Source of the DNA: Vibrio sp. NTOU-M3
Lineage (GTDB): Bacteria; Pseudomonadota; Gammaproteobacteria; Enterobacterales; Vibrionaceae
DNA length: 64,000 nucleotides
Reading direction: 5' to 3'
Assembly (NCBI RefSeq): GCF_040869035.1
Contig: NZ_CP162100.1
Coordinates: 1,674,001-1,738,000, forward strand
Shown: piece by piece, positions 16,140 to 52,394 of the stretch
Numbering within the stretch: the first letter of the stretch is position 1
Layout: the number at the start of each line of letters is the position of its first letter
Position numbers and translations under genes: made by a program
Notes under the pieces: model-generated
The model's input: the letters and a program-made list of their open reading frames with translations, nothing else
Told to the model about the DNA's origin: nothing
Databases searched by the model: none

Positions 16140-16160
16140 GCCACGCTTCATTGTTACTAA

Positions 16161-16189
16161 AAACGCAGCATATCCGCTGCGTTTTTTTA
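16161..16189 (+). terminator. Rho-independent terminator after letB
   Basis: Stem 16162-16169 with 16176-16183 (8 bp), followed by seven T. It separates letB from rsmF. Confidence 0.85.
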
Positions 16190-16238
16190 TCCATTTCGCT
16201 ATAATCCCACTCCTTTACACCTAATCGAGATTAACTCA

Positions 16239-33585: not shown

Positions 33586-36500
33586 TTAGTCTACATTTTT
33601 GACTGAAACCAGTTCGTTTAATAAACCAGTCATATCATTACTACTGATATAATCAGAGAATTGGCTCGCAGCATCTTGAAGAACAATGACTTGTGTATCC
33701 CCATCATGTTCAACCGTTAACTTCAAATCTGCTGATGATGAGTTAATATCACCTTCTACAGAAACAATAGTACTCGCCAATAAATCATCCATGGTCTCGT
33801 CTTCAGTTAGAAGTTCAGACAAATCTATTTGATCTTGCTGACGATTGAAGTCTGTGATGACATCTTCATGAACAGAGAATGGTTCATCTACCCATTTGAA
33901 AATGTCGTACCCTTCACCACCAGTAAGCAGGTCATCACCCGTTCCACCAATTAAGATGTCGTTACCAGCCCCGCCAACAAGCCTGTCGTTACCACTGCCA
34001 CCACGTAAACCGTCGTTGCCTTCACCGCCATCGAGCACATCGTCACCCGAACCACCAAACATAATGTCAACGCCGCCTTGACCATAAATATGGTCATCGC
34101 CACCGCCTCCATGGCCTAAGTCGACAAAGGCATTGCTGGTTCCGGAAATGCTCATAGCACTATCTTCGACATTGGAGTCTTCAAGGAAATCACCATCGTT
34201 ACCTTTCGAGAATGTTTCCAATACAGTTTGAGCATTATCTTGTTTGATTTTGGCTTGTTCATGGTCATCAATATTTGCATGGCTATCACCAAGATAAATG
34301 GTGTCATCACCCGATCCCATAAAGACATCATCACCCGCAGCACCCACATCAACCACCATTCCATTGATCGTTTCTTGATGTGTGAAGCTTTCAGTTGTCG
34401 CACCTGTGCCACTGATTCCTGAAGTTGACCAATACGCATACTCGCTTGACGAGTTTGCGTGAACAATTTGAACGGTATCAACTACATCACCTTCAGACTT
34501 AATATCAGGCGTAACGTTCACGCCATCAATTTCGAAGGATAATATACTTTCACTGCTGTCACCGTCGTTATCTTCCAGTTTGTAATTGAAGTTAACTTCA
34601 ACAGGTCTATCATCAGCTGCGCCATAGAACGTGTAGTTACCATCGTCCATATCGATTACTAATGAATGCTTAGAGTCAACATAAATAGAAAGTGTGTTTG
34701 TCGCGCTATCAAAGTGCGACGAAATCATCGAACTCGTTCCAGATTGCGATACAGAAGAGCCATTAAAAGTAAATGTTACCCCTTCAATCGTAATTGATTT
34801 CACGATAGCCCCATCACCACCAGAGTGAGAAGACAACAAGTTACCACCGACGTCTTGAACTACGGACTGAAGTAAGACTGGAGGTAAGTCGTTAACATCT
34901 GGAACCATAATTGCGTCGCTATCAACTTCTAAGAAGCCATCATAAGCGACTAGATCTAGTTGATCCGAATCCAAGTTCTCGCCAATACCGTAAGCTAACG
35001 CCGTCACATCGTACTCTTTTAGGTGATCAACCCACGTTTTCAGTTCGTCAGATTGTATCGAGTTAGGATCCCCATTATCGGAACCAGTCGGTTCACCGTC
35101 AGATAGGAAGTAACTTATATTAGAACCATTAGTGACCATGTTACCTTGGTTATCATCCCAAGCATTGTCCGCTCGCCAAAGTGCTGTGTCATAGTCAGTA
35201 CCACCTCCAGCACCTAATGATTCAATGTAATCTATTGCATCTTCAACGGAGACCCAAACGCTTGAACCGCTGCTATATACACTCGCAGTATATGAGAAAA
35301 CGACTATTTGAACTTTAGTATCCCCAAGAGCTTGATACTGATTCAGCATTTCGATGGCTGCATCTTTCATAACTTGTAGACGTGATACATCAACATTTGT
35401 ACTTGAACCAGTTTCAGCATCCCAGTTCATAGAACCGGAAATATCAAGTACAAGCTGTACATTTGCGCCAACCTTGGTTTCTGCATCAACATCATGGTGA
35501 ATTCGCTCAGCAACAGGCGAATCGTCTTCGACATTAATCGCAATATTACCAGAAGCATTGATACCAGCCTGATCTTCCACATTAATAGGCACATTAATGG
35601 TTAATGAATCTTCACCATTGGCGTTAGAATGATCAATACCACCACTTAGCTGCGTAGAAACTTGGCCATTATTGTCAACACTAATAGTAATAACATCTTC
35701 ACCTGAAGCACTACCTGTTAGCGTTTTACCATCCGATGACAATGTCCATGTTACCGTAGCACCATCACTTGTCAGTGTATCTGTTGGAGTGCCTAACGTA
35801 ACGTCAGCAATATGACCGCTTAAACTAACTGTTCCAGCATCTGTTACACTATTTGTCGTATCAGAATGACCTTCCAATGCTTGATCATCCACGATTCCAA
35901 GTGACAACCCTTCTTCAGAGACGTTTAGCTCAAGATCACCAACTGAAGGAGGCATATACGGATTAACCGCAAACGCTCCTGTGACACTATCTCCATCACC
36001 ATCAACTGCGGTAAACGTAAAATCAATATCCCCATCTCCTTGTGGGTTGGTCATAGGTTTATACTGGAGATATTCCCATTTACCTGTCGCAGGAGTTAAT
36101 TGGACGTCAAATACCAATTCTCCGTTTTCATCGCGACCAAGTAAACGATTCGGGTTTTGAGAGTCGATTGAAATAGTGATATTAGAACCATCAGCGGTTT
36201 GCAAACTACTTTCAGCACCCGTTAACTTAAGGCTTCCAAAACCATCTGCACCAAATTCAATCTGCAAGTTCCCCTCAGAACTCGCTATAGGTGTTTCGTT
36301 TGGCCCCAATAAGGAAACATTAACTGCAGAGCTGTCTGTTACTACTGGTCGATCGTCTTCTACCACAATGGTTAAGTCACCCGTAGAAGCGACCTGCCCA
36401 TCTGAAACAACGATGCTAAAGTTAAATGTAACAGTATCCTCAACCGTAGCATCTGGATGATCAATCGGGTGAGAAAGAGCTATATCGTAATTCCACGTCC

Positions 36501-39500
36501 CTTTACCTGACGTATTTGGCTCAGATAATGAAATTTCTGCCACGTTTCCTAAACTACTTGTCGAACCGACAAGTGTTTGAGATGTCGCATCCCAACTCCA
36601 TACGATAGATTCACCACCACTCATTAATCCTGTAGGACCAGTTAGAGATACAGAAAGTGTGTCACTATCAACGTCTCCTACTACAAATGAACCGCTTGCT
36701 GAGGCTGAGTTAGTCGTATCAGAAGAACCCTGACTATCTGCAATACCGTCGGCCAATCCCTCTTCAGAAACAACACTACCTTGAATCGATGTGATTGTTG
36801 GTGGCGCGTCATTATCTATAATCGTCGCGGTGCCGGTATCACTGCCTACCGTGCCGTCGCCCGCTGTTGCGGTAACCGTAAAGTCTTCGTTACCTTCGAA
36901 TACGGTATCGTTAGTCGTTGGGATAGTCACCGTCAGGTTGGTTTGACCCGCAGGGATGGTGTAGCTGCCATCTGTATTTGGATTCACCACCGTGCCATCA
37001 ACGGTAGTCACCACCATAGTACCAAAGTCATCAGCCTCTGCACTGCCCGTTTGGCTTGCAAGGTTGACGGTGACATCGGTATCCGCGGCTTGTGATAGGC
37101 TCACAGTAAAGACCGCGTCATCACCTTCGCTGACAGACACCGTCTCAGTGATTGAGACAGTTGGGCGATCGTCATTGCCGCCGTTCTCACCACCATCGGT
37201 GATGGTTGCGGTGCCAGTATCACTGCCCACTGCACCGTCGCCCGCTGTTGCCGTGACCGTGAAGTCTTCGTTACCTTCAAAGACCGTATCGTTGGTGGTT
37301 GGAATAGTGACTGTTAGGTTCGTTTGACCTGCTGGGATGGTGTAGCTGCCGTCTGTGTTTGGATTGACCACTGTGCCATCAGCGGTAGTCACCACCATGG
37401 CGCCAAAGTCGTCGCTGCTTGCTGAGCCAGTCTGGCTTGCAAGGTTAACGGTGACGTCGGTATCCGCGGCTTGAGACAAACTCACGGTAAAGACCGCGTC
37501 ATCGCCTTCGCTCACAGATACCGTTTCAGTAATTGAGACAGTTGGGCGATCATCATTGCCGCCGTTCTCACCACCATCGGTGATGGTCGCGGTGCCAGTA
37601 TCACTGCCCACGGTGCCGTCGCCCGCTGTTGCGGTAACCGTAAAGTCTTCGTTACCTTCGAATACCGTATCGTTGGTTGTAGGGATGGTGACTGTTAGGT
37701 TCGTTTGACCTGCTGGGATGGTGTAGCTGCCGTCTGTATTTGGATTCACCACCGTGCCATCAGCGGTGGTCACCACCATGGTACCGAAGTCGTCGCTGCT
37801 TGCTGAGCCAGTCTGGCTTGCAAGGTTGACGGTCACATCGGTATCCGCGGCTTGTGACAGGCTCACAGTAAAGACCGCGTCATCGCCTTCGCTGACAGAA
37901 ACAGTTTCCGTGATGCTAATGGTCGGGCGGTCATCATTGCCACCGTTCTCACCACCATCAGTGATGGTCGCCGTGCCGGTATCACTGCCGACAGTGCCGT
38001 CACCAGCGGTTGCGGTTACCGTAAAGTCTTCGTTACCTTCGAATACGGTATCGTTAGTCGTTGGGATAGTCACCGTCAGATTCGTTTGACCTGCTGGGAT
38101 GGTGTAGCTGCCATCTGTATTTGGATTCACCACCGTGCCATCAGCGGTGGTCACCACCATGGCGCCAAAGTCGTCGCTGCTTGCTGAGCCAGTCTGGCTT
38201 GCAAGGTTAACGGTGACGTCGGTATCCGCGGCTTGAGACAAACTCACGGTAAAGACCGCGTCATCGCCTTCGCTGACAGACACCGTCTCAGTGATTGAGA
38301 CAGTTGGGCGATCGTCATTGCCGCCATTCTCACCACCATCAGTGATGGTCGCCGTGCCAGTATCACTGCCCACCGTGCCGTCGCCCGCTGTTGCGGTAAC
38401 CGTAAAGTCTTCGTTACCTTCGAATACCGTATCGTTGGTGGTTGGGATAGTCACCGTCAGGTTCGTTTGACCTGCTGGGATGGTGTAGCTGCCGTCAGTG
38501 TTTGGATTAACAACGGTGCCGTCAGCGGTAGTCACCACCATGGCGCCAAAGTCGTCGCTGCTTGCTGAGCCAGTTTGGCTTGCAAGGTTAACGGTGACGT
38601 CGGTATCCGCGGCTTGTGACAGGCTCACGGTAAAGACCGCGTCATCGCCTTCGCTCACAGATACCGTTTCAGTAATTGAGACAGTTGGGCGATCATCATT
38701 GCCGCCGTTCTCACCACCATCAGTGATGGTCGCGGTGCCAGTATCACTGCCCACGGTGCCGTCACCAGCGGTTGCCGTTACCGTAAAGTCTTCGTTACCT
38801 TCGAAGACCGTGTCGTTGGTGGTTGGGATAGTCACCGTCAGGTTCGTTTGACCTGCTGGGATGGTGTAGCTGCCGTCAGTGTTTGGATTAACAACGGTGC
38901 CGTCAGCGGTAGTCACCACCATGGCGCCAAAGTCGTCGCTGCTTGCTGAGCCAGTTTGGCTTGCAAGGTTGACGGTGACGTCGGTATCCGCGGCTTGTGA
39001 CAAGCTCACAGTAAAGACCGCGTCATCGCCTTCGCTCACAGAAACAGTTTCAGTAATTGAGACAGTTGGGCGATCGTCATTGCCGCCATTCTCACCACCA
39101 TCAGTGATGGTCGCGGTGCCGGTATCACTGCCCACTGTGCCATCGCCAGCCGTCGCCGTTACCGTGAAGTCTTCATTACCTTCAAATACGGTGTCATCCG
39201 TGGTTGGAATGGTCACCGTCAGGTTCGTTTCACCCGCTGGAATGGTGTAGCTGCCATCTGTATTTGGATTGACCACCGTACCATCAGCGGTAGTCACCAC
39301 CATGGTGCCAAAGTCGTCGCTGCTTGCTGAGCCAGTTTGGCTTGCAAGGTTAACAGTGACGTCCGTATCCGCGGCTTGTGACAGGCTCACAGTAAAGACC
39401 GCGTCATCACCTTCGCTCACAGAAACGGTTTCCGTGATGCTAATGGTCGGACGGTCATCATTGCCGCCATTCTCACCACCATCAGTGATGGTCGCCGTGC

Positions 39501-42500
39501 CGGTATCACTGCCCACTGTGCCATCGCCAGCCGTCGCCGTTACCGTGAAGTCTTCATTACCTTCAAATACGGTGTCATCCGTGGTTGGAATGGTCACCGT
39601 CAGGTTCGTTTGACCTGCTGGGATGGTGTAGCTGCCGTCTGTATTTGGATTCACCACAGTGCCATCAACGGTAGTCACCACCATGGTGCCGAAGTCGTCG
39701 CTGCTTGCCGAGCCAGTCTGGCTTGCAAGATTGACCGTGACATCCGTATCCGCGGCTTGTGACAAGCTCACGGTAAAGACCGCATCATCACCTTCGCTCA
39801 CAGATACAGTTTCCGTGATGCTAATGGTCGGGCGGTCATCATTGCCGCCGTTCTCACCACCATCAGTGATGGTCGCCGTGCCGGTATCGCTGCCCACTGT
39901 GCCATCGCCAGCCGTCGCCGTTACCGTGAAGTCTTCATTGCCTTCGAATACGGTGTCATCCGTGGTTGGAATGGTCACCGTCAGGTTCGTTTGACCTGCT
40001 GGGATGGTGTAGCTGCCGTCTGTATTTGGATTCACCACAGTGCCATCAACGGTAGTCACCACCATGGTGCCGAAGTCGTCGCTGCTTGCTGAGCCAGTCT
40101 GGCTTGCAAGGTTGACGGTCACATCGGTATCCGCGGCTTGTGACAGGCTCACAGTAAAGACCGCATCATCGCCTTCGCTGACAGAAACAGTTTCAGTAAT
40201 TGAGACAGTTGGGCGGTCATCATTACCGCCGTTCTCACCACCGTCGGTGATGGTCGCCGTGCCGGTATCGCTGCCCACTGTGCCATCGCCAGCCGTCGCC
40301 GTTACCGTGAAGTCTTCATTGCCTTCGAATACGGTGTCATCCGTGGTTGGAATGGTCACCGTCAGGTTCGTTTGACCTGCTGGGATGGTGTAGCTGCCGT
40401 CTGTATTTGGATTCACCACAGTGCCATCAACGGTAGTCACCACCATGGTGCCGAAGTCGTCGCTGCTTGCCGAGCCAGTCTGGCTTGCAAGATTGACCGT
40501 GACATCCGTATCCGCGGCTTGTGACAAGCTCACGGTAAAGACCGCATCATCACCTTCGCTCACAGATACAGTTTCCGTGATGCTAATGGTCGGGCGGTCA
40601 TCATTGCCGCCATTCTCACCACCATCAGTGATGGTCGCGGTGCCGGTATCACTGCCCACTGTGCCATCGCCAGCCGTCGCCGTTACCGTGAAGTCTTCAT
40701 TACCTTCAAATACGGTGTCATCCGTGGTTGGAATGGTCACCGTCAGGTTCGTTTGACCTGCTGGGATGGTGTAGCTGCCGTCTGTATTTGGATTCACCAC
40801 AGTGCCATCAACGGTAGTCACCACCATGGTGCCGAAGTCGTCGCTGCTTGCCGAGCCAGTCTGGCTTGCAAGATTGACCGTGACATCCGTATCCGCGGCT
40901 TGTGACAAGCTCACGGTAAAGACCGCATCATCACCTTCGCTCACAGATACAGTTTCCGTGATGCTAATGGTCGGGCGGTCATCATTGCCGCCGTTCTCAC
41001 CACCATCAGTGATGGTCGCCGTGCCAGTATCACTGCCCACCGTGCCGTCGCCCGCTGTTGCGGTAACCGTAAAGTCTTCGTTACCTTCGAATACCGTATC
41101 GTTGGTGGTTGGGATAGTCACCGTCAGGTTCGTTTGACCTGCTGGGATGGTGTAGCTGCCGTCAGTGTTTGGATTAACAACGGTGCCATCAGCGGTGGTC
41201 ACCACCATGGTGCCAAAGTCATCAGCCTCTGCACTACCCGTTTGGCTTGCAAGATTGACCGTGACATCCGTATCCGCGGCTTGTGACAGGCTCACAGTAA
41301 AGACCGCGTCATCGCCTTCGCTCACAGATACCGTCTCTGTGATTGAGATAGTTGGGCGATCGTCATTGCCGCCATTCTCACCACCATCAGTGATGGTCGC
41401 GGTGCCAGTATCACTGCCCACTGTGCCATCGCCAGCCGTCGCCGTTACCGTGAAGTCTTCATTGCCTTCGAATACGGTGTCATCCGTGGTTGGAATGGTC
41501 ACCGTCAGGTTCGTTTCACCCGCTGGAATGGTGTAGCTGCCGTCTGTATTTGGATTCACCACAGTGCCATCAACGGTAGTCACCACCATGGTGCCAAAGT
41601 CATCAGCCTCTGCACTACCCGTTTGGCTTGCAAGATTGACCGTGACATCCGTATCCGCGGCTTGTGACAGGCTCACAGTAAAGACCGCGTCATCGCCTTC
41701 GCTCACAGATACCGTCTCTGTGATTGAGATAGTTGGGCGATCGTCATTGCCACCGTTCTCACCACCATCAGTGATGGTCGCCGTGCCGGTATCACTGCCG
41801 ACAGTGCCGTCACCAGCGGTTGCGGTTACCGTAAAGTCTTCGTTACCTTCGAATACGGTATCGTTAGTCGTTGGGATAGTCACCGTCAGATTCGTTTGAC
41901 CTGCTGGAATGGTGTAGCTGCCATCTGTATTTGGATTCACCACCGTGCCGTCAGCGGTGGTCACCACCATGGTACCGAAGTCGTCGCTGCTTGCTGAGCC
42001 AGTCTGGCTTGCAAGATTGACGGTGACGTCGGTATCCGCGGCTTGTGATAGGCTCACGGTAAAGACCGCGTCATCACCTTCGCTGACAGACACCGTCTCA
42101 GTGATTGAGACAGTTGGGCGATCGTCATTGCCGCCATTCTCACCACCATCAGTGATGGTCGCGGTGCCAGTATCACTGCCCACCGTGCCGTCGCCCGCTG
42201 TTGCGGTAACCGTAAAGTCTTCATTGCCTTCGAATACGGTGTCATCCGTGGTTGGAATGGTCACCGTCAGGTTCGTTTGACCTGCTGGGATGGTGTAGCT
42301 GCCGTCTGTATTTGGATTGACAACGGTGCCATCAGCGGTAGTCACCACCATAGCACCGAAGTCGTCGCTGCTTGCCGAGCCAGTTTGGCTTGCAAGGTTA
42401 ACAGTGACATCGGTATCCGCGGCTTGTGACAGGCTCACAGTAAAGACCGCGTCATCGCCTTCGCTCACAGACACCGTTTCAGTAATTGAGACAGTTGGGC

Positions 42501-45500
42501 GATCATCATTGCCGCCGTTCTCACCACCATCGGTGATGGTTGCGGTGCCAGTATCGCTGCCCACCGTGCCGTCGCCCGCGGTTGCGGTAACCGTAAAGTC
42601 TTCGTTACCTTCGAATACCGTATCGTTGGTGGTTGGGATAGTCACCGTCAGGTTCGTTTGACCTGCTGGGATGGTGTAGCTGCCGTCTGTATTTGGATTC
42701 ACCACCGTGCCATCAGCGGTGGTCACCACCATGGTACCGAAGTCGTCGCTGCTTGCTGAGCCAGTCTGGCTTGCAAGGTTGACGGTCACATCGGTATCCG
42801 CGGCTTGTGACAGGCTCACAGTAAAGACCGCGTCATCGCCTTCGCTGACAGAAACAGTTTCCGTGATGCTAATGGTCGGGCGGTCATCATTGCCACCGTT
42901 CTCACCACCATCAGTGATGGTCGCCGTGCCGGTATCACTGCCGACAGTGCCGTCACCAGCGGTTGCGGTTACCGTAAAGTCTTCGTTACCTTCGAATACG
43001 GTATCGTTAGTCGTTGGGATAGTCACCGTCAGATTCGTTTGACCTGCTGGGATGGTGTAGCTGCCATCTGTATTTGGATTCACCACCGTGCCATCAGCGG
43101 TGGTCACCACCATGGCGCCAAAGTCGTCGCTGCTTGCTGAGCCAGTCTGGCTTGCAAGGTTAACGGTGACGTCGGTATCCGCGGCTTGAGACAAACTCAC
43201 GGTAAAGACCGCGTCATCGCCTTCGCTGACAGACACCGTCTCAGTGATTGAGACAGTTGGGCGATCGTCATTGCCGCCATTCTCACCACCATCAGTGATG
43301 GTCGCGGTGCCAGTATCACTGCCCACCGTGCCGTCGCCCGCTGTTGCGGTAACCGTAAAGTCTTCGTTACCTTCGAAGACCGTATCGTTGGTGGTTGGGA
43401 TAGTCACCGTCAGGTTCGTTTGACCTGCTGGGATGGTGTAGCTGCCGTCAGTGTTTGGATTAACAACGGTGCCGTCAGCGGTAGTCACCACCATGGCGCC
43501 AAAGTCGTCGCTGCTTGCTGAGCCAGTTTGGCTTGCAAGGTTGACGGTGACGTCGGTATCCGCGGCTTGTGACAGGCTCACAGTAAAGACCGCGTCATCG
43601 CCTTCGCTCACAGATACCGTTTCAGTAATTGAGACAGTTGGGCGATCATCATTGCCGCCGTTCTCACCACCATCGGTGATGGTTGCGGTGCCAGTATCGC
43701 TGCCCACCGTGCCGTCGCCCGCTGTTGCGGTAACCGTAAAGTCTTCGTTACCTTCGAAGACCGTATCGTTGGTGGTTGGGATAGTCACCGTCAGGTTCGT
43801 TTGACCTGCTGGGATGGTGTAGCTGCCGTCAGTGTTTGGATTCACCACCGTGCCATCAGCGGTGGTCACCACCATGGTACCGAAGTCGTCGCTGCTTGCT
43901 GAGCCAGTCTGGCTTGCAAGATTGACCGTCACATCGGTATCCGCGGCTTGTGATAGGCTCACAGTAAAGACCGCGTCATCGCCTTCGCTCACAGATACCG
44001 TTTCAGTAATTGAGACAGTTGGGCGATCATCATTGCCGCCGTTCTCACCACCATCGGTGATGGTTGCGGTGCCAGTATCGCTGCCCACCGTGCCGTCGCC
44101 CGCTGTTGCGGTAACCGTAAAGTCTTCGTTACCTTCGAAGACCGTATCGTTGGTGGTTGGGATAGTCACCGTCAGGTTCGTTTGACCTGCTGGGATGGTG
44201 TAGCTGCCGTCAGTGTTTGGATTAACAACGGTGCCATCAGCGGTGGTCACCACCATGGTGCCAAAGTCATCAGCCTCTGCACTACCCGTTTGGCTTGCAA
44301 GATTGACCGTCACATCGGTATCCGCGGCTTGTGACAGGCTCACAGTAAAGACCGCGTCATCGCCTTCGCTCACAGATACCGTCTCTGTGATTGAGACAGT
44401 TGGGCGATCATCATTGCCGCCGTTCTCACCACCATCGGTGATGGTTGCGGTGCCAGTATCGCTGCCCACCGTGCCGTCGCCCGCTGTTGCGGTAACCGTA
44501 AAGTCTTCGTTACCTTCGAATACCGTATCGTTGGTTGTAGGGATGGTGACTGTTAGGTTCGTTTGACCTGCTGGGATGGTGTAGCTGCCGTCTGTATTTG
44601 GATTCACCACCGTGCCATCAGCGGTAGTCACCACCATAGTACCAAAGTCATCAGCCTCTGCACTGCCCGTTTGGCTTGCAAGGTTGACGGTGACGTCGGT
44701 ATCCGCGGCTTGTGATAGGCTCACAGTAAAGACCGCGTCATCACCTTCGCTGACAGACACCGTCTCAGTGATTGAGACAGTTGGGCGATCGTCATTGCCG
44801 CCATTCTCACCACCATCAGTGATGGTTGCGGTGCCGGTATCGCTGCCCACTGTGCCATCGCCAGCCGTCGCCGTTACCGTGAAGTCTTCATTGCCTTCGA
44901 ATACGGTGTCATCCGTGGTTGGAATGGTCACCGTCAGGTTCGTTTCACCCGCTGGAATGGTGTAGCTGCCGTCTGTATTTGGATTCACCACAGTGCCATC
45001 AGAGGTGGTCACCACCATGGTGCCGAAGTCGTCACTGCTTGCTGAGCCAGTTTGGCTTGCAAGGTTAACCGTGACGTCGGTATCCGCGGCTTGAGACAAA
45101 CTCACGGTAAAGACCGCGTCATCGCCTTCGCTGACAGATACCGTTTCAGTAATTGAGACAGTTGGGCGATCGTCATTGCCGCCGTTCTCACCACCATCGG
45201 TGATGGTCGCCGTGCCGGTATCACTGCCGACAGTGCCGTCACCAGCGGTTGCGGTGACAGTAAAGTCTTCGTTACCTTCGAATACCGTATCGTTGGTTGT
45301 AGGGATGGTGACTGTTAGGTTCGTTTGACCTGCTGGGATGGTGTAGCTGCCGTCAGTGTTTGGATTAACAACGGTGCCGTCAGCGGTAGTCACCACCATG
45401 GTACCGAAGTCGTCGCTGCTTGCTGAGCCAGTTTGGCTTGCAAGGTTAACCGTGACGTCGGTATCCGCGGCTTGTGACAAGCTCACAGTAAAGACCGCGT

Positions 45501-48500
45501 CATCGCCTTCGCTCACAGAAACAGTTTCAGTAATTGAGACAGTTGGGCGGTCATCATTACCGCCGTTCTCACCACCGTCGGTGATGGTCGCCGTGCCGGT
45601 ATCGCTGCCCACTGTGCCATCGCCCGCTGTTGCGGTAACCGTAAAGTCTTCATTGCCTTCGAATACGGTGTCATCCGTGGTTGGAATGGTCACCGTCAGG
45701 TTCGTTTCACCCGCTGGAATGGTGTAGCTGCCGTCTGTATTTGGATTCACCACCGTGCCATCAGAGGTGGTCACCACCATGGTGCCGAAGTCGTCACTGC
45801 TTGCTGAGCCAGTTTGGCTTGCAAGGTTAACCGTGACGTCGGTATCCGCGGCTTGTGACAAGCTCACAGTAAAGACCGCGTCATCGCCTTCGCTCACAGA
45901 AACAGTTTCAGTAATTGAGACAGTTGGGCGATCGTCATTGCCGCCATTCTCACCACCATCAGTGATGGTCGCGGTGCCGGTATCACTGCCCACTGTGCCA
46001 TCGCCAGCCGTCGCCGTTACCGTGAAGTCTTCATTACCTTCAAATACGGTGTCATCCGTGGTTGGAATGGTCACCGTCAGGTTCGTTTGACCTGCTGGGA
46101 TGGTGTAGCTGCCGTCTGTATTTGGATTCACCACAGTGCCATCAACGGTAGTCACCACCATGGTGCCGAAGTCGTCGCTGCTTGCCGAGCCAGTCTGGCT
46201 TGCAAGATTGACCGTGACATCCGTATCCGCGGCTTGTGACAAGCTCACGGTAAAGACCGCATCATCACCTTCGCTCACAGATACAGTTTCCGTGATGCTA
46301 ATGGTCGGGCGGTCATCATTGCCGCCGTTCTCACCACCATCAGTGATGGTCGCCGTGCCGGTATCGCTGCCCACTGTGCCATCGCCAGCCGTCGCCGTTA
46401 CCGTGAAGTCTTCATTGCCTTCGAATACGGTGTCATCCGTGGTTGGAATGGTCACCGTCAGGTTCGTTTGACCTGCTGGGATGGTGTAGCTGCCGTCTGT
46501 ATTTGGATTCACCACAGTGCCATCAACGGTAGTCACCACCATGGTGCCGAAGTCGTCGCTGCTTGCTGAGCCAGTCTGGCTTGCAAGGTTGACGGTCACA
46601 TCGGTATCCGCGGCTTGTGACAGGCTCACAGTAAAGACCGCATCATCGCCTTCGCTGACAGAAACAGTTTCAGTAATTGAGACAGTTGGGCGGTCATCAT
46701 TACCGCCGTTCTCACCACCGTCGGTGATGGTCGCCGTGCCAGTATCACTGCCCACTGTGCCATCGCCAGCCGTCGCCGTTACCGTGAAGTCTTCATTGCC
46801 TTCGAATACGGTGTCATCCGTGGTTGGAATGGTCACCGTCAGGTTCGTTTCACCCGCTGGAATGGTGTAGCTGCCGTCTGTATTTGGATTCACCACAGTG
46901 CCATCAACGGTAGTCACCACCATGGTGCCGAAGTCGTCGCTGCTTGCTGAGCCAGTCTGGCTTGCAAGGTTGACGGTCACATCGGTATCCGCGGCTTGTG
47001 ACAGGCTCACAGTAAAGACCGCGTCATCGCCTTCGCTGACAGAAACAGTTTCCGTGATGCTAATGGTCGGGCGGTCATCATTGCCGCCATTCTCACCACC
47101 ATCAGTGATGGTCGCGGTGCCAGTATCGCTGCCCACTGTGCCGTCGCCCGCGGTTGCGGTGACCGTAAAGTCTTCATTGCCTTCGAATACGGTATCGTTG
47201 GTCGTTGGAATAGTGACTGTTAGGTTCGTTTCACCCGCTGGGATGGTGTAGCTGCCGTCTGTATTTGGATTGACCACCGTGCCATCAGCGGTAGTCACCA
47301 CCATGGTGCCGAAGTCGTCACTGCTTGCCGAGCCAGTCTGGCTTGCAAGGTTAACCGTGACGTCGGTATCCGCGGCTTGTGACAAGCTCACAGTAAAGAC
47401 CGCGTCATCGCCTTCGCTGACAGACACCGTCTCTGTGATTGAGACAGTTGGGCGGTCATCATTACCGCCGTTCTCACCACCGTCGGTGATGGTCGCCGTG
47501 CCGGTATCGCTGCCCACTGTGCCATCGCCCGCTGTTGCGGTAACCGTAAAGTCTTCATTGCCTTCGAATACGGTGTCATCCGTGGTTGGAATGGTCACCG
47601 TCAGGTTCGTTTCACCCGCTGGAATGGTGTAGCTGCCGTCTGTATTTGGATTCACCACCGTGCCATCAGAGGTGGTCACCACCATGGTGCCGAAGTCGTC
47701 ACTGCTTGCTGAGCCAGTCTGGCTTGCAAGATTGACCGTGACATCCGTATCCGCGGCTTGTGACAAGCTCACAGTAAAGACCGCGTCATCGCCTTCGCTG
47801 ACAGAAACGGTTTCCGTGATGCTAATGATCGGACGGTCATCATTGCCGCCATTCTCACCACCATCAGTGATGGTCGCGGTGCCAGTATCACTGCCCACCG
47901 TGCCGTCACCCGCTGTTGCGGTGACAGTAAAGTCTTCGTTACCTTCGAATACGGTATCGTTGGTCGTTGGGATAGTGACTGTTAGGTTCGTTTGACCCGC
48001 TGGGATGGTGTAGCTGCCGTCTGTGTTTGGATTGACCACGGTGCCATCAGAGGTGGTCACCACCATGGTGCCAAAGTCGTCGCTGCTTGCTGAGCCCGTT
48101 TGGCTTGCAAGATTGACCGTCACATCGGTATCTGCCGCTTGTGACAAGCTCACAGTAAAGACCGCGTCATCGCCTTCGCTGACAGACACCGTCTCTGTGA
48201 TTGAGACAGTTGGGCGGTCATCATTACCGCCGTTCTCACCACCGTCGGTGATGGTCGCGTCAGCATCAGTATTTTCTGAATTAACAAGTCCATCAACAGC
48301 ATCAACCGTTAATATAAAGGACTCATCCCCTTCATATGTATCATCTTGTACGGTTTCTACATTTACATTGAGATTGGTTACTCCGGCGGGTACAACGACT
48401 GTCCCATCAGGTGCTACGGTTAATTGAATACCAGTATCTGTCGTAACAATGATATTGCCAATATCGTCTGACTCAGCAGTTGTTGGCGTAATATCAAGCT

Positions 48501-49344
48501 TTAAAGTTGTATCTTGGTTTGATGGTTTATCAAATTCAATCGTGAAGACCGCATCATCGCCTTCACTCACATTGCCACCACCAGTAACAGAAATTTCAGG
48601 TATCGGATTTACAACAACGATAACTTCTATTTCGTCGCTGCCTCCTTCACCGTCTGTAACGACAACCGTAAATGAGTCATTGCCATCAAAATCTTCATCT
48701 GGCGTATAAGTCCAACTGCCATCAGGGTTCACTGTCACCTGACCATTAGAGGGAGGCGTAGCTGTGCTAAATGTTAATTCATCATCATTGACATCGGTTG
48801 CGATCAATTGACCACTTATAGAAGTATCTTCGTCGGTCGAAACAGTGATACTTTCCCCAAGCGGAGATTCATTAATATCAACAAATTCTGGAGGTAATTG
48901 CGCTAGACGAAACTGGTCAAGTAAAGTCAGGCTTTGTGTTTCTGATAGGCCTAATGATGCGAAACCTTCGGTAACAAAATTGGTCGATGCAATAGTTTCA
49001 CTTCCATCACGACTTACTGTCCCTGACGAGGTTAAGCTCGAACCGCTTTGTCCACCTGCAGCGGGAGCTAATTCTCCATCTAGTAATGTGGGATCTTGAC
49101 CCTGTTCTAATGCCGCGAGTATCTCATTCACATCATCAGTAATATTTTGAGGTTCATTAGCATTATCAACACGAGCTACTGACAACACTGATGCTTCTTC
49201 AGTTTCTCCATTGGGATATAGAATCACCTCTCCAGGTAAAAGAGTGTCTCCTTCTCTAAAGACTCGTATTTCACCTGCAGCATTTATTATTACTACGTTT
49301 ATATTCGCCAGGCTTCCCGACAAAACCAAAGTACCAAGTTTCAT
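33586..49344 (-). CDS. Giant LapA-type RTX adhesin with 30 Calx-beta-like repeats
   Basis: 5,252 residues, a type I-secreted surface adhesin. The N-terminus (1-150) is a retention module of the LapA type (MKLGTLVLSGSLANINVVII) with a PAAG motif at residues 94-97, matching the di-alanine site cut by LapG proteases. Next come a cadherin/VCBS-like domain (165-255) and a divergent Calx-beta unit. Thirty 127-residue units follow (375-4184), each with SVSEGDDAVFTVSLSQ and FEGNEDFTVTATAGDG. The C-terminal 1,068 residues hold further VCBS-like domains and a von Willebrand A domain with MIDAS motif LDISGSM (about 4633). Seven or eight GGxGxDxL RTX nonapeptides follow at about 5080-5150, then an uncleaved secretion signal. 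AGAGG precedes the ATG. TolC-like and OmpA-like genes lie divergently upstream. Relatives include LapA and V. cholerae FrhA. Confidence 0.95.
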   Translation of the reverse strand: MKLGTLVLSGSLANINVVIINAAGEIRVFREGDTLLPGEVILYPNGETEEASVLSVARVDNANEPQNITDDVNEILAALEQGQDPTLLDGELAPAAGGQSGSSLTSSGTVSRDGSETIASTNFVTEGFASLGLSETQSLTLLDQFRLAQLPPEFVDINESPLGESITVSTDEDTSISGQLIATDVNDDELTFSTATPPSNGQVTVNPDGSWTYTPDEDFDGNDSFTVVVTDGEGGSDEIEVIVVVNPIPEISVTGGGNVSEGDDAVFTIEFDKPSNQDTTLKLDITPTTAESDDIGNIIVTTDTGIQLTVAPDGTVVVPAGVTNLNVNVETVQDDTYEGDESFILTVDAVDGLVNSENTDADATITDGGENGGNDDRPTVSITETVSVSEGDDAVFTVSLSQAADTDVTVNLASQTGSASSDDFGTMVVTTSDGTVVNPNTDGSYTIPAGQTNLTVTIPTTNDTVFEGNEDFTVTATAGDGTVGSDTGTATITDGGENGGNDDRPIISITETVSVSEGDDAVFTVSLSQAADTDVTVNLASQTGSASSDDFGTMVVTTSDGTVVNPNTDGSYTIPAGETNLTVTIPTTDDTVFEGNEDFTVTATAGDGTVGSDTGTATITDGGENGGNDDRPTVSITETVSVSEGDDAVFTVSLSQAADTDVTVNLASQTGSASSDDFGTMVVTTADGTVVNPNTDGSYTIPAGETNLTVTIPTTNDTVFEGNEDFTVTATAGDGTVGSDTGTATITDGGENGGNDDRPTISITETVSVSEGDDAVFTVSLSQAADTDVTVNLASQTGSASSDDFGTMVVTTVDGTVVNPNTDGSYTIPAGETNLTVTIPTTDDTVFEGNEDFTVTATAGDGTVGSDTGTATITDGGENGGNDDRPTVSITETVSVSEGDDAVFTVSLSQAADTDVTVNLASQTGSASSDDFGTMVVTTVDGTVVNPNTDGSYTIPAGQTNLTVTIPTTDDTVFEGNEDFTVTATAGDGTVGSDTGTATITDGGENGGNDDRPTISITETVSVSEGDDAVFTVSLSQAADTDVTVNLASQTGSASSDDFGTMVVTTVDGTVVNPNTDGSYTIPAGQTNLTVTIPTTDDTVFEGNEDFTVTATAGDGTVGSDTGTATITDGGENGGNDDRPTVSITETVSVSEGDDAVFTVSLSQAADTDVTVNLASQTGSASSDDFGTMVVTTSDGTVVNPNTDGSYTIPAGETNLTVTIPTTDDTVFEGNEDFTVTATAGDGTVGSDTGTATITDGGENGGNDDRPTVSITETVSVSEGDDAVFTVSLSQAADTDVTVNLASQTGSASSDDFGTMVVTTADGTVVNPNTDGSYTIPAGQTNLTVTIPTTNDTVFEGNEDFTVTATAGDGTVGSDTGTATITDGGENGGNDDRPTVSITETVSVSEGDDAVFTVSLSQAADTDVTVNLASQTGSASSDDFGTMVVTTSDGTVVNPNTDGSYTIPAGETNLTVTIPTTDDTVFEGNEDFTVTATAGDGTVGSDTGTATITDGGENGGNDDRPTVSITETVSVSEGDDAVFTVSLSQAADTDVTVNLASQTGSAEADDFGTMVVTTADGTVVNPNTDGSYTIPAGQTNLTVTIPTTNDTVFEGNEDFTVTATAGDGTVGSDTGTATITDGGENGGNDDRPTVSITETVSVSEGDDAVFTVSLSQAADTDVTVNLASQTGSAEADDFGTMVVTTADGTVVNPNTDGSYTIPAGQTNLTVTIPTTNDTVFEGNEDFTVTATAGDGTVGSDTGTATITDGGENGGNDDRPTVSITETVSVSEGDDAVFTVSLSQAADTDVTVNLASQTGSASSDDFGTMVVTTADGTVVNPNTDGSYTIPAGQTNLTVTIPTTNDTVFEGNEDFTVTATAGDGTVGSDTGTATITDGGENGGNDDRPTVSITETVSVSEGDDAVFTVSLSQAADTDVTVNLASQTGSASSDDFGAMVVTTADGTVVNPNTDGSYTIPAGQTNLTVTIPTTNDTVFEGNEDFTVTATAGDGTVGSDTGTATITDGGENGGNDDRPTVSITETVSVSEGDDAVFTVSLSQAADTDVTVNLASQTGSASSDDFGAMVVTTADGTVVNPNTDGSYTIPAGQTNLTVTIPTTNDTVFEGNEDFTVTATAGDGTVGSDTGTATITDGGENGGNDDRPTISITETVSVSEGDDAVFTVSLSQAADTDVTVNLASQTGSASSDDFGTMVVTTADGTVVNPNTDGSYTIPAGQTNLTVTIPTTNDTVFEGNEDFTVTATAGDGTVGSDTGTATITDGGENGGNDDRPTVSITETVSVSEGDDAVFTVSLSQAADTDVTVNLASQTGSASSDDFGAMVVTTADGTVVNPNTDGSYTIPAGQTNLTVTIPTTDDTVFEGNEDFTVTATAGDGTVGSDTGTATITDGGENGGNDDRPTVSITETVSVSEGDDAVFTVSLSQAADTDVTVNLASQTGSASSDDFGTMVVTTADGTVVNPNTDGSYTIPAGQTNLTVTIPTTNDTVFEGNEDFTVTATAGDGTVGSDTGTATITDGGENGGNDDRPTISITETVSVSEGDDAVFTVSLSQAADTDVTVNLASQTGSAEADDFGTMVVTTVDGTVVNPNTDGSYTIPAGETNLTVTIPTTDDTVFEGNEDFTVTATAGDGTVGSDTGTATITDGGENGGNDDRPTISITETVSVSEGDDAVFTVSLSQAADTDVTVNLASQTGSAEADDFGTMVVTTADGTVVNPNTDGSYTIPAGQTNLTVTIPTTNDTVFEGNEDFTVTATAGDGTVGSDTGTATITDGGENGGNDDRPTISITETVSVSEGDDAVFTVSLSQAADTDVTVNLASQTGSASSDDFGTMVVTTVDGTVVNPNTDGSYTIPAGQTNLTVTIPTTDDTVFEGNEDFTVTATAGDGTVGSDTGTATITDGGENGGNDDRPTISITETVSVSEGDDAVFTVSLSQAADTDVTVNLASQTGSASSDDFGTMVVTTVDGTVVNPNTDGSYTIPAGQTNLTVTIPTTDDTVFEGNEDFTVTATAGDGTVGSDTGTATITDGGENGGNDDRPTVSITETVSVSEGDDAVFTVSLSQAADTDVTVNLASQTGSASSDDFGTMVVTTVDGTVVNPNTDGSYTIPAGQTNLTVTIPTTDDTVFEGNEDFTVTATAGDGTVGSDTGTATITDGGENGGNDDRPTISITETVSVSEGDDAVFTVSLSQAADTDVTVNLASQTGSASSDDFGTMVVTTVDGTVVNPNTDGSYTIPAGQTNLTVTIPTTDDTVFEGNEDFTVTATAGDGTVGSDTGTATITDGGENGGNDDRPTISITETVSVSEGDDAVFTVSLSQAADTDVTVNLASQTGSASSDDFGTMVVTTADGTVVNPNTDGSYTIPAGETNLTVTIPTTDDTVFEGNEDFTVTATAGDGTVGSDTGTATITDGGENGGNDDRPTVSITETVSVSEGDDAVFTVSLSQAADTDVTVNLASQTGSASSDDFGAMVVTTADGTVVNPNTDGSYTIPAGQTNLTVTIPTTNDTVFEGNEDFTVTATAGDGTVGSDTGTATITDGGENGGNDDRPTVSITETVSVSEGDDAVFTVSLSQAADTDVTVNLASQTGSASSDDFGAMVVTTADGTVVNPNTDGSYTIPAGQTNLTVTIPTTNDTVFEGNEDFTVTATAGDGTVGSDTGTATITDGGENGGNDDRPTVSITETVSVSEGDDAVFTVSLSQAADTDVTVNLASQTGSASSDDFGAMVVTTADGTVVNPNTDGSYTIPAGQTNLTVTIPTTNDTVFEGNEDFTVTATAGDGTVGSDTGTATITDGGENGGNDDRPTISITETVSVSEGDDAVFTVSLSQAADTDVTVNLASQTGSASSDDFGTMVVTTADGTVVNPNTDGSYTIPAGQTNLTVTIPTTNDTVFEGNEDFTVTATAGDGTVGSDTGTATITDGGENGGNDDRPTVSITETVSVSEGDDAVFTVSLSQAADTDVTVNLASQTGSASSDDFGAMVVTTADGTVVNPNTDGSYTIPAGQTNLTVTIPTTNDTVFEGNEDFTVTATAGDGAVGSDTGTATITDGGENGGNDDRPTVSITETVSVSEGDDAVFTVSLSQAADTDVTVNLASQTGSAEADDFGTMVVTTVDGTVVNPNTDGSYTIPAGQTNLTVTIPTTNDTVFEGNEDFTVTATAGDGTVGSDTGTATIIDNDAPPTITSIQGSVVSEEGLADGIADSQGSSDTTNSASASGSFVVGDVDSDTLSVSLTGPTGLMSGGESIVWSWDATSQTLVGSTSSLGNVAEISLSEPNTSGKGTWNYDIALSHPIDHPDATVEDTVTFNFSIVVSDGQVASTGDLTIVVEDDRPVVTDSSAVNVSLLGPNETPIASSEGNLQIEFGADGFGSLKLTGAESSLQTADGSNITISIDSQNPNRLLGRDENGELVFDVQLTPATGKWEYLQYKPMTNPQGDGDIDFTFTAVDGDGDSVTGAFAVNPYMPPSVGDLELNVSEEGLSLGIVDDQALEGHSDTTNSVTDAGTVSLSGHIADVTLGTPTDTLTSDGATVTWTLSSDGKTLTGSASGEDVITISVDNNGQVSTQLSGGIDHSNANGEDSLTINVPINVEDQAGINASGNIAINVEDDSPVAERIHHDVDAETKVGANVQLVLDISGSMNWDAETGSSTNVDVSRLQVMKDAAIEMLNQYQALGDTKVQIVVFSYTASVYSSGSSVWVSVEDAIDYIESLGAGGGTDYDTALWRADNAWDDNQGNMVTNGSNISYFLSDGEPTGSDNGDPNSIQSDELKTWVDHLKEYDVTALAYGIGENLDSDQLDLVAYDGFLEVDSDAIMVPDVNDLPPVLLQSVVQDVGGNLLSSHSGGDGAIVKSITIEGVTFTFNGSSVSQSGTSSMISSHFDSATNTLSIYVDSKHSLVIDMDDGNYTFYGAADDRPVEVNFNYKLEDNDGDSSESILSFEIDGVNVTPDIKSEGDVVDTVQIVHANSSSEYAYWSTSGISGTGATTESFTHQETINGMVVDVGAAGDDVFMGSGDDTIYLGDSHANIDDHEQAKIKQDNAQTVLETFSKGNDGDFLEDSNVEDSAMSISGTSNAFVDLGHGGGGDDHIYGQGGVDIMFGGSGDDVLDGGEGNDGLRGGSGNDRLVGGAGNDILIGGTGDDLLTGGEGYDIFKWVDEPFSVHEDVITDFNRQQDQIDLSELLTEDETMDDLLASTIVSVEGDINSSSADLKLTVEHDGDTQVIVLQDAASQFSDYISSNDMTGLLNELVSVKNVD
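36793..48222 (-). repeat. Tandem array, 30 x 381 bp, inside the adhesin gene
   Basis: The same position of the unit (the codons for DDRPT) falls at 48222 in the first copy and 37173 in the last, a difference of 11,049 = 29 x 381. The period therefore never slips. The array is 11,430 bp. Protein-level variation is limited to a few positions: ASSDD or EADD, T/A before MVV, S/A/V before DGT, Q/E before TNL, N/D in TxDT, and V/I in RPxSI. Synonymous differences are scattered in blocks. The last unit ends with IIDNDAPP instead of the GGENGG linker. Confidence 0.95.
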
Positions 49345-50464: not shown

Positions 50465-51769
50465 GTGAATTTGAAAAAGCAGATAACGTTAAGCTGCTTA
50501 GTTGCTCTTAGCCTGCCGGCATATAGCCAAACTTTAGAACAAGCAGTCGCTTATACAATTAATAATAACCCTGAGATACGTGCCTCATACAATGAGTTTA
50601 TAAGTAAAAGGTACGATGCTGATGCTTCGACTGGGGCGTACTTACCTAAGGTTGATTTGGATGCAGGCATTGGTTATGAAGCAATAGATCCAGTTAACGG
50701 TTCAGATACTGAACTAACCCGAAAAGAAGCTACCTTGTCACTAACCCAATTGATTTGGGATGGTTCTGCCACATTAAACGATATGGATAGAACTGCCGCA
50801 GACGCCGAATCCGTTCGTTACCAACTATTAGCAGATGCTCAAGACATTGCACTTCAAGTTACTAAAATCTATCTCGATGCAACAAAAGCATACGAAGTAC
50901 TGTCCTTATCGGAGAGTAATCTTGCTGTTCACAAAGAGATATTTAAAGACATTAAAAGACGTGTAGACTCAGGTTTAGGTTCAACCGCTGACCTTTCTCA
51001 AGTTGAAGCTCGATTAGCCAAAGCACACGGAAACCTTCTTGCGGCTCAAAATAACCTTTTCGACGTCCATACCCAATTTAAACGTATTGTAGGACAAGCG
51101 CCTCAAGGGCTCATTTTCCCTCGAGCTGATCAAAATGCGATTCCATACAGTGTTGACGACGCGCTTACACTAGCCTTTGAACGCCATCCTGTGATCAAAA
51201 TATCTCACGCAGACGTTGATTCTGCTCGTTTTCAGTATGATCAAAGTAAAGGGGTAAACTACCCTACGCTTTCAATTGAAGCCGCTCAAACATGGCGTGA
51301 TGATGCCGCAGGTATTGAAGGTCGCAGTGACGAGTTAACAGCAATGCTACGCATGCGTTATAACTTGTACAATGGTGGTTCAGATGCAGATCGTAGTAAG
51401 AGTGCTGCATACCAACTTAATAAAGCAAAGGATTTTCGCGACAGAACATTCCGTAGTGTAGAAGAAGGCCTGCGTTTATCTTGGAGCGCGTTAGATTTAA
51501 CTCTCCAACAGAAAGAGTTTTTAGCTGACCATGTAGACTCGGCATCTGAAACCGTAATTGCCTATGAAAAGCAATACAAGCTAGGCAAACGAACTCTCCT
51601 TGATTTACTCAACACTGAAAATGAGTTGTTCGAAGCCCGCAAAGGCTACCTTGATGCAAAATACGATGAGCAATATGCGAAATATCGTGTTATGAATGCA
51701 ACTGGTGGTCTGTTAGATGCGTTGCTTGTGGATACCCCTGAAAATTGGTCAAAGCCGGTGGAGTACTAA
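50465..51769 (+). CDS. TolC-family type I secretion outer-membrane protein
   Basis: 434 residues with signal peptide MNLKKQITLSCLVALSLPAYS. It forms the trimeric outer-membrane channel of a type I system, of the LapE/AggA kind. The TolC repeat structure is visible: LEQAVAYTINNNPEIRAS opens the first half and VDDALTLAFERHPVIKISHAD the second. YNLYNGGSDADRSKSA and YKLGKRTLLDLLNTENELFEAR are family hallmarks. The start is GTG at 50465 with GAGGAGA upstream. It is divergent from the giant adhesin and 4 bases before the OmpA-like gene. It is probably the adhesin's export channel, inferred from position. The ABC and membrane-fusion partners are absent from the window. Confidence 0.92.
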   Translation: MNLKKQITLSCLVALSLPAYSQTLEQAVAYTINNNPEIRASYNEFISKRYDADASTGAYLPKVDLDAGIGYEAIDPVNGSDTELTRKEATLSLTQLIWDGSATLNDMDRTAADAESVRYQLLADAQDIALQVTKIYLDATKAYEVLSLSESNLAVHKEIFKDIKRRVDSGLGSTADLSQVEARLAKAHGNLLAAQNNLFDVHTQFKRIVGQAPQGLIFPRADQNAIPYSVDDALTLAFERHPVIKISHADVDSARFQYDQSKGVNYPTLSIEAAQTWRDDAAGIEGRSDELTAMLRMRYNLYNGGSDADRSKSAAYQLNKAKDFRDRTFRSVEEGLRLSWSALDLTLQQKEFLADHVDSASETVIAYEKQYKLGKRTLLDLLNTENELFEARKGYLDAKYDEQYAKYRVMNATGGLLDALLVDTPENWSKPVEY

Positions 51770-51773
51770 TTAA

Positions 51774-52394
51774 ATGAATAAGAAACTTTTCACTTTTACA
51801 ACATTAGTATCTTTGCTGTCTGCTCCAGTATTTGCAGATAAACTCGATGATGAATACGAGTATATTGAAACACCAACCTCCAACCAAATCGCGGATCTAC
51901 AAGATGACGATCGAGATGGTGTGATTAACGCTCGCGATCTTTGTCCTGAAACGCCATTAAAAGCAGAGATTGATAATGATGGTTGTGGCACCTATATAAA
52001 AACCGAAGAAGAAGTCAAACTGCATATCCTATTTGCCAATGACTCTTCAGAAATCCAACCAGTCTTTCTTGGTCAAATCAGAGAAATGGCGGATTTCTTA
52101 AAAGAATACCCTTCAACCTCTATTGAAATTCAAGGTTTTGCTAGCAAAGTAGGTACCGCGGAGTACAACCTTGCTCTTTCTAAGCGCCGCGCAAATGCTG
52201 TTGAGGCTACGCTCATTGCCAATGGCATCAGTAGCTCTAGAGTTCGAATTGTGGGTTTTGGTGATACCAAGTTATCAGAGCAAGGAGATGACGAAGTCAG
52301 CCATGCTATGAACCGAAAGGTTACTGCGACTGTCGTTGGCCACAAAGGCAGCGTAAAAGAAGAATGGACTATCTTTACGAAGAAAGCGAAATAA
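51774..52394 (+). CDS. OmpA-family lipid-free outer-membrane/peptidoglycan-binding protein
   Basis: 206 residues with a signal peptide (MNKKLFTFTTLVSLLSAPVFA) and no lipobox. A short thrombospondin-3-like calcium motif (DDDRDGVINARDLCPETP, DNDGCG) precedes an OmpA C-terminal domain (about 80-190). In that domain, ILFANDSSEIQPVF, IEIQGFASKVGTAEYNLALSKRRANAV and VRIVGFGDTK carry the peptidoglycan-binding Asp/Arg pattern. It begins 4 bases after the TolC-like stop, so the two are an operon. It may help anchor the secretion channel or adhesin to the wall (inference). A strong terminator follows. Confidence 0.9.
   Translation: MNKKLFTFTTLVSLLSAPVFADKLDDEYEYIETPTSNQIADLQDDDRDGVINARDLCPETPLKAEIDNDGCGTYIKTEEEVKLHILFANDSSEIQPVFLGQIREMADFLKEYPSTSIEIQGFASKVGTAEYNLALSKRRANAVEATLIANGISSSRVRIVGFGDTKLSEQGDDEVSHAMNRKVTATVVGHKGSVKEEWTIFTKKAK

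Follow-up and report, generated by a model that had tools for sequence, protein, structure and literature searches.

A Vibrio adhesin gene with thirty in-register Calx-beta repeats that are uniform in protein but not in DNA

The adhesin locus and its neighbours

The window analysed here is a 64,000-nucleotide stretch of the Vibrio sp. NTOU-M3 genome (contig NZ_CP162100.1, positions 1,674,001 to 1,738,000), and it contains a giant gene whose product is, judging from its predicted domains, a Vibrio RTX adhesin of the FrhA/LapA type (Table 1). The greater part of the gene is an array of 30 units, each exactly 381 bp (127 aa) long. All 29 intervals between units measure exactly 127 codons and the array totals 11,430 bp within one open frame; TRF reports 30.0 copies with 90% matches, 0% indels and a score of 16728, figures that exclude a chance origin of the periodicity. 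The initial annotation was therefore correct as to period, unit number and total length, and its register (36793-48222) describes the same array as that used here (36796-48225), offset by one codon.

One unit alone matches the Calx-beta profile PF03160 (31.6 bits, above the cut-off of 27), and a two-unit structure model also matches this fold; unit 30 together with the stretch downstream of it scores under the cut-off (24.6 bits). An alignment-based sequence search of solved structures gave a single weak match (9xg1_A, E 7e-5), which was set aside. Unit 0 shares 45.6% identity with unit 1 across 125 aa.

The N-terminus matches the retention_LapA profile NF033682 (32.8 bits, E 7e-8) at a score under the curated cut-off of 50, and the PAAG at aa 94-97 is likely to be a LapG cleavage site. 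An xAAG motif is present in the same context in 15 of the 17 N-terminal loci scanned, including this gene (14 of 16 relatives); these are 17 of the 20 loci from a search with the N-terminus, and the two that lack the motif are L018 and L024. The C-terminal part has matches to TIGR03660 (101.7 bits) and PF13519 (42.5 bits), and contains the RTX repeats associated with type I secretion (PF00353, 59.2 bits, cut-off 23).

The TolC-family channel encoded next to the adhesin would be LapE-like by role. Profile searches of a second contig (C2), presumably chromosome 2, identify HlyD, PF06035, PF16448+GGDEF+EAL and ABC genes, with the LapG, LapD and secretion ABC/HlyD genes grouped together. LapB/C/D/G-type genes and an outer-membrane channel are thus both present in the genome.

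Table 1. Features of the adhesin locus (window coordinates).
Feature	Coordinates	Strand	Basis or remark
Giant adhesin gene, 5252 aa, ATG start at 49344	33586..49344	-	Single open frame; Pfam/NCBIfam domains
Retention-module-like N-terminal region, ~aa 1-155	48880..49344	-	NF033682 retention_LapA
PAAG, likely LapG cleavage site, aa 94-97	49054..49065	-	Motif and its context in relatives
Big_9/cadherin-like domain, ~aa 156-246	48607..48879	-	PF17963 70.3 bits, PF17892 54.7 bits
Divergent unit 0, aa 247-373	48226..48606	-	Fourfold-site GC 0.36
Array of 30 units	36796..48225	-	Calx-beta/LapA-type domain per unit; single-unit fourfold-site GC 0.51-0.68
Unit 30	36796..37176	-	7 of the last 8 residues differ from other units
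C-terminal part: T1SS-143-type repeats, von Willebrand A domain, RTX Ca2+-binding repeats	33586..36795	-	Profile matches
TolC-family outer-membrane channel	50465..51769	+	TIGR01844 411.6 bits, cut-off 225.15; divergent from adhesin gene
OmpA-family protein beside TolC-family gene	51774..52394	+	PF00691 70 bits

Divergence and exchange among the units

The uniformity of the array sits in the protein and not in the DNA. Among units 1-29 (unit 30 is omitted from these means) protein identity averages 97.7%, whereas DNA identity averages 89.6% (82.7-100%). A pair of units differs on average at 2.97 residues (maximum 8), but at 36.1 of 127 codons (0-57) and at 39.7 nucleotides, 86% of them in third positions; the initial description of units that differ at a handful of codons is therefore accurate for amino acids but not for codons. 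Of the 406 unit pairs, three share the same DNA sequence and 359 have at least 25 nucleotide differences. The units have a dS of 0.51 and a dN/dS of 0.037, which in recombining units is an average over several histories.

The units are mosaics. Linkage falls off within tens of bases, and the four-gamete test gives an Rmin of 35; such counts can be inflated by repeated mutation, and only the decay with distance tells the two apart. Segregating alleles are at intermediate frequency and singletons are scarce (7 of 116), a shortage that is not general among arrays with scrambled silent sites, as L071 and L097 show a surplus (0.66 and 0.51 singletons). Near-identical tracts (932 and 916 nt, no more than three mismatches) link units 13 and 17 positions apart; some tracts of ~0.9 kb are recent copies, and with the three identical pairs they indicate that some copying is recent. 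Neighbouring units are more alike than others. The longest run invariant across units is four codons (shuffle p 0.60). A conserved DNA element at the unit junctions, suggested by a 30-nt match of 97% in the Vibrio genome G128, was rejected, as silent variation extends to the junction codons as well.

G128 carries the nearest ortholog found, the best match among 148 Vibrio genomes searched with the adhesin N-terminus, and its best unit is 71% identical to unit 14 at the amino acid level. Within-array identity exceeds this value, and continuing homogenisation within the lineage, as originally proposed, is therefore upheld; the recent 0.9-kb tracts agree with it. The G128 frame has two units, protein-identical except at their ends, in a draft of ~90 contigs in which collapse of repeats is possible. 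When 227 Vibrio genomes (this one included) were searched at the DNA level with two units as queries and no more than two candidates scored in each, 13 others gave matches, the best being 68% over 542 nt (G128) with higher identities confined to shorter stretches, and in this search a donor of the divergent silent blocks was not found.

We consider it probable that the array encodes a stalk of Calx-beta domains, which a Lap circuit anchors and releases, and that its repeats are old, constrained and reshuffled. The 30 domains, which have Ca2+-site-like acidic residues near their ends, would project the VWA/RTX part at the C-terminus outward from the cell; the TolC-family channel of the adjacent gene probably retains the N-terminus, and the adhesin would be released when LapG, under the control of LapD, cuts at PAAG. 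Residue uniformity looks to be maintained by selection on the protein and by mixing among the copies and not by a recent burst of copying: purifying selection would act on most residues, with short-tract exchange between units continuing by gene conversion and occasional unequal exchange. Because the lineages of DNA blocks appear old (dS ~0.5), the array is better described as reshuffled and aged than as a fresh amplification of a single unit. Several points weigh against this explanation. Selection at silent sites that lowers repeat instability would likewise give a high dS, and weak selection of this kind is possible; and the retention module scores under its curated cut-off.

Silent-site composition and the history of the array

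Other Vibrio adhesin arrays were surveyed in 58 stretches picked by hand from matches of the N-terminus and DNA searches, chiefly long open frames from genomes close to complete, and the proportions are therefore not those of a random sample. Five stretches were left out, four that continue others (L068, L119, L120 and L121) and one that is the lap cluster (L070), and 53 stretches plus the window (54) were examined, with arrays of at least five units in 35 of them. To be counted, neighbouring units had to match at 65% of residues or more, and any unit whose median identity fell under 70% was discarded; because no stretch exceeded 20 kb, some unit counts are lower bounds. The 39 initial rows correspond to 37 arrays: L099 and L100 each have a second row, which for L099 reads the same DNA in a different frame and for L100 follows the same repeat onward into a different frame. 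Nineteen of the 37 arrays are DNA-identical or nearly so, six are intermediate, and 12 are scrambled like that in the window; 16, all from other species with this gene family, have no DNA difference between counted units.

The array also has an unusual silent-site composition. Its fourfold-site GC is 0.61, compared with 0.325 elsewhere in the gene, with a shift at both borders, and a standardised excess relative to the remainder of each gene is positive in 35 of the 37 arrays (the second row of L100, which had been counted twice in one fourfold-GC tabulation, was dropped here, and in L075 and L109 the remainder includes a second array). The excess is larger in more identical arrays (Spearman 0.46, p 0.004), although p values in this comparison are too small because the species are related and the sites linked. 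In nine genomes (this one and eight hand-chosen for identical arrays, with ORFs called mechanically) ribosomal-region ORFs have a fourfold GC of 0.19-0.22 and the arrays 0.61-0.85, such that the arrays lean opposite to ribosomal-region composition in 9/9; these ribosomal-region values rule out translational selection as the driver of GC-rich silent sites. Beyond Vibrio, Calx-beta matches are present in 82 of 281 genomes of the class, and of 10 stretches fetched three have arrays of 3-6 units, all three with fourfold GC above the rest of the gene by 0.04 to 0.15, although these are too few.

These patterns raise the possibility, about which we are doubtful, of a GC-favouring process, either gene conversion or selection, that pushes the silent sites of recombining arrays toward G+C. 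Among segregating sites C outweighs T, and G outweighs both A and T, in favour of such a process, but at A/C sites the lean is toward A, without reaching significance (0.592, n 14). In identical arrays the gain falls chiefly on G at fourfold sites and on C at twofold sites, with T losing more than A, which differs from the prediction for a symmetric process. Furthermore, the mean GC-allele frequency is below 0.5 in three of 15 arrays (L096, L107 and L112) and the excess is individually significant in three of 15. The process leaves the protein uniformity unexplained, and it would supplement the constrained and reshuffled stalk and not supplant it. More speculatively still, Vibrio adhesin arrays may alternate between a reset state (one unit amplified, dS 0) and an aged state (protein held, silent sites scrambled and reshuffled), the window array being aged, with GC-biased gene conversion lifting silent-site GC during recombination. 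If so, these arrays would be natural, replicated recorders of GC-biased gene conversion in bacteria. Both DNA states, together with the higher GC of arrays relative to their own genes, provide replicates for addressing whether biased conversion operates in bacteria, which is disputed (PMC8153448; PMC6867656).

A reading offered in the initial annotation, that the array grew lately and owes its uniformity to the youth of its units, is unlikely. The identical pairs and the long copy tracts could be so explained, as could the lack of close unit DNA in other Vibrio genomes within the limits of the 227-genome search, and the few singletons would permit renewed growth at a late stage from several founder units that had already diverged. 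However, the dS, the 359 divergent pairs and the intermediate allele frequencies count against it, and arrays of relatives that do look recent have a dS of 0. The version with a single founder is strongly disfavoured, as neither a dS of 0.51 nor the scarcity of singletons fits recent star-like growth. Least probable is a natural codon scrambling in which silent differences are selected to lower recombination and keep stalk length stable: the contrast of protein and DNA identity and the 12 scrambled arrays would suit it, and laboratories deliberately recode such repeats against recombination (PMC7493085), but two expected signs of such selection, shorter exact runs and broader codon choice, were tested and not seen (exact inter-unit runs are longer than when the same differences are placed at random, 54.8 vs 37.4 nt in 359 pairs, and codon choice is narrower than in 20 other window genes, 1.343 vs 1.663 bits), and similarity is higher between neighbouring units, not lower. 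Where bacterial surface repeats are uniform in protein, recent amplification and variable length are easily assumed; this array demonstrates that such a reading may fail, and silent sites thus need to be checked.

Comparison with known systems

A close likeness is to FrhA (VC1620) of Vibrio cholerae, as judged from its published description. FrhA is described as an RTX-family adhesin with a retention region, a PAAG motif cleaved by LapG, and cadherin and Calx-beta repeats, with LapD and LapG encoded away from the adhesin gene (PMC6890996). Among RTX extender regions, the repeats of MpIBP are reported to be 100% identical in DNA, and those of MhLap and AhLap to vary in amino acids (PMC7493085); the window array differs from these in being uniform in protein but not in DNA. 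DDxP proteins, of which Vibrio members are reported (PMC7730722), share the Asp-Asp-x-Pro motif, present as NDDRP at all 30 unit starts and thus at each unit boundary. However, the 127-aa unit lies outside their 136-215 and 243-309 aa classes, being shorter than the former, and the DGDGD motif found 11-19 aa before DDxP in those proteins was looked for throughout the array and not found.

The idea of length tuning raised in the initial annotation is that of the Periscope proteins, whose stalks have high coding-sequence identity and vary in length between strains (PMC8201768, PMC9704523). The adhesin resembles these in its long presumed stalk of near-identical globular repeats, but its units lack very high coding-sequence identity (mean 89.6%, dS 0.51). 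Polyubiquitin-like evolution yields protein-identical repeats with many silent differences, and the array is similar in that purifying selection keeps the repeats alike while silent sites diverge; unlike polyubiquitin, its units also exchange tracts, and its product is a presumed structural stalk. According to a published survey, new repeat copies undergo strongly relaxed selection and are then conserved, with repeats overall under purifying selection (PMC5120217), and the within-array dN/dS of 0.04 at a dS of 0.5 is a strong case of this conserved phase.

Repeat units of the adhesin gene

The adhesin gene contains 30 repeats in exact register, as the initial annotation had stated; they are of Calx-beta type, and an independent method (TRF) returns 30.0 copies without indels; the source genome comprises two contigs. 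The array is uniform at the protein level, not at the DNA level. Mean identity among units 1-29 is 97.7% in protein and 89.6% in DNA, and pairs of units differ on average at 36.1 of 127 codons, so the description of units differing at a handful of codons does not hold. Third positions account for 86.3% of the 16,110 differences totalled over 406 unit pairs, with dN of 0.019 and dS of 0.513 (ratio 0.037), and nine of the 87 variable codons (of 127) change the residue. Among the open-access titles and abstract openings listed, none described adhesin arrays that are uniform in protein yet scrambled at silent sites, or a GC excess in such arrays, which is weak evidence of absence.

Features in the window and at two other loci
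Feature	Sequence	Coordinates	Strand	Remarks
Adhesin gene	window	33586-49344	minus	codes for 5252 residues
Repeat array	window	36796-48225 (aa 374-4183)	minus	30 units, each exactly 127 residues (381 bp)
Hexanucleotide run	window	58516-58552		ATTTCC, 6.2 copies, in frame; gives the 58336-59769 protein its Gly-Asn run
Protein with Gly-Asn run	window	58336-59769		resembles NUDIX plus membrane phosphatase, by eye
Trypsin-like serine protease	window	60414-61958		Trp-rich end module
Chitinase-like protein	L070 (lap cluster)	14982-17522		near the lap cluster; Trp-rich end module
Identical array, two open frames	L100	667-10200, 9987-12998		frame break inside the array, either genomic or assembly-made

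The Trp-rich end modules of the protease and the chitinase-like protein are alike, as judged by eye.

Mosaicism and the age of the variation

The units are mosaics. Linkage drops to about 0.1 past 25 nt, a distance decay unmatched in 5000 permutations. When each unit is reconstructed from the others, about one third as many switches and one quarter as many mismatches are needed as in shuffled controls. Two tracts, 932 and 916 nt long and with no more than three mismatches, are recent copies. Singletons make up 7 of 116 alleles (about a quarter is the neutral expectation), and Tajima's D, at 1.32, exceeds that of every other scrambled array with at least 8 units (lowest -1.36). The variation in this array is thus old, with few young private changes; two other scrambled arrays, L071 and L097, have the opposite pattern. 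Selection for silent scrambling in the repeats is quite improbable, as it predicts an even spread of differences and broad codon use, and the window array displays the reverse. The recent expansion initially proposed, if from a single founder unit, is strongly disfavoured by the high dS and scarce singletons, the reverse of its predictions.

The closest ortholog found, in genome G128 (the best of 147 other genomes searched), is 59% identical in amino acids in its N-terminal part and 55.5% in its C-terminal part, and a DNA search across the genus gave no closer long-stretch match to the units. Because silent sites are saturated in this comparison (pS 0.755 and 0.773, respectively) and the best unit identity, to window unit 14, is 71%, the units are younger than the split from G128. 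Their much closer likeness to one another supports the proposal of continuing homogenisation, which would have occurred within the lineage.

Silent-site composition

At fourfold sites the window array has a GC fraction of 0.61, against 0.325 for the remainder of the gene, with steps at both borders (0.36 to 0.60 from the divergent unit 0 to unit 1, and 0.58 to 0.24 after unit 30). An excess, standardised for amino-acid boxes, is present in 35 of 37 Vibrio arrays (mean 0.23) and grows with array identity (Spearman 0.46, p 0.004). Across nine genomes, values are 0.19-0.22 in ribosomal-region ORFs, 0.29-0.45 in single 20-kb samples and 0.61-0.85 in the arrays. Array values mostly lie far above the remainder of their own gene and run contrary to ribosomal-gene codon preference.

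At segregating silent sites pooled across arrays with at least 8 units, C is favoured over T (mean 0.584, n=226), G over A (0.568, n=67) and G over T (0.677, n=22), with p values that are too small owing to linkage within arrays; A/C sites tilt to A without significance (0.592, n=14), and A/T and C/G sites lack significant bias. The mean GC-allele frequency exceeds 0.5 in 8 of 10 arrays. Identical arrays have lost more T than A, which counts against a simple symmetric process.

Array states across Vibrio

Our survey, of chosen loci, covers 37 arrays from 54 examined loci. dS is below 0.01 in 19 (16 with zero DNA difference between counted units), 0.02-0.17 in six and 0.31-1.0 in 12, the window array among the last. 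Six of the arrays with identical counted units (L078 to L083), and others, have 24-60 units each. At L109 a single gene carries two arrays in different states, one of 6 units that is scrambled (dS 0.52) and one of 41 units that is near-identical (dS 0.004). Assembly polishing could in principle produce apparent copy identity in some genomes; we see no way for it to produce the scrambled silent-site pattern.

Among the 12 scrambled arrays dN/dS is 0.036-0.20, and the window array has the highest protein identity and the second lowest ratio (0.040 in the survey pipeline). Similar unit types occur in different states between species: scrambled L075 and identical L088 (86% aa), scrambled L097 and identical L083 (74%), and scrambled L071 and intermediate L072 (dS 0.04; 90%). 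We read these contrasts as arrays that may be reset by amplification and then age, an inferred order of events.
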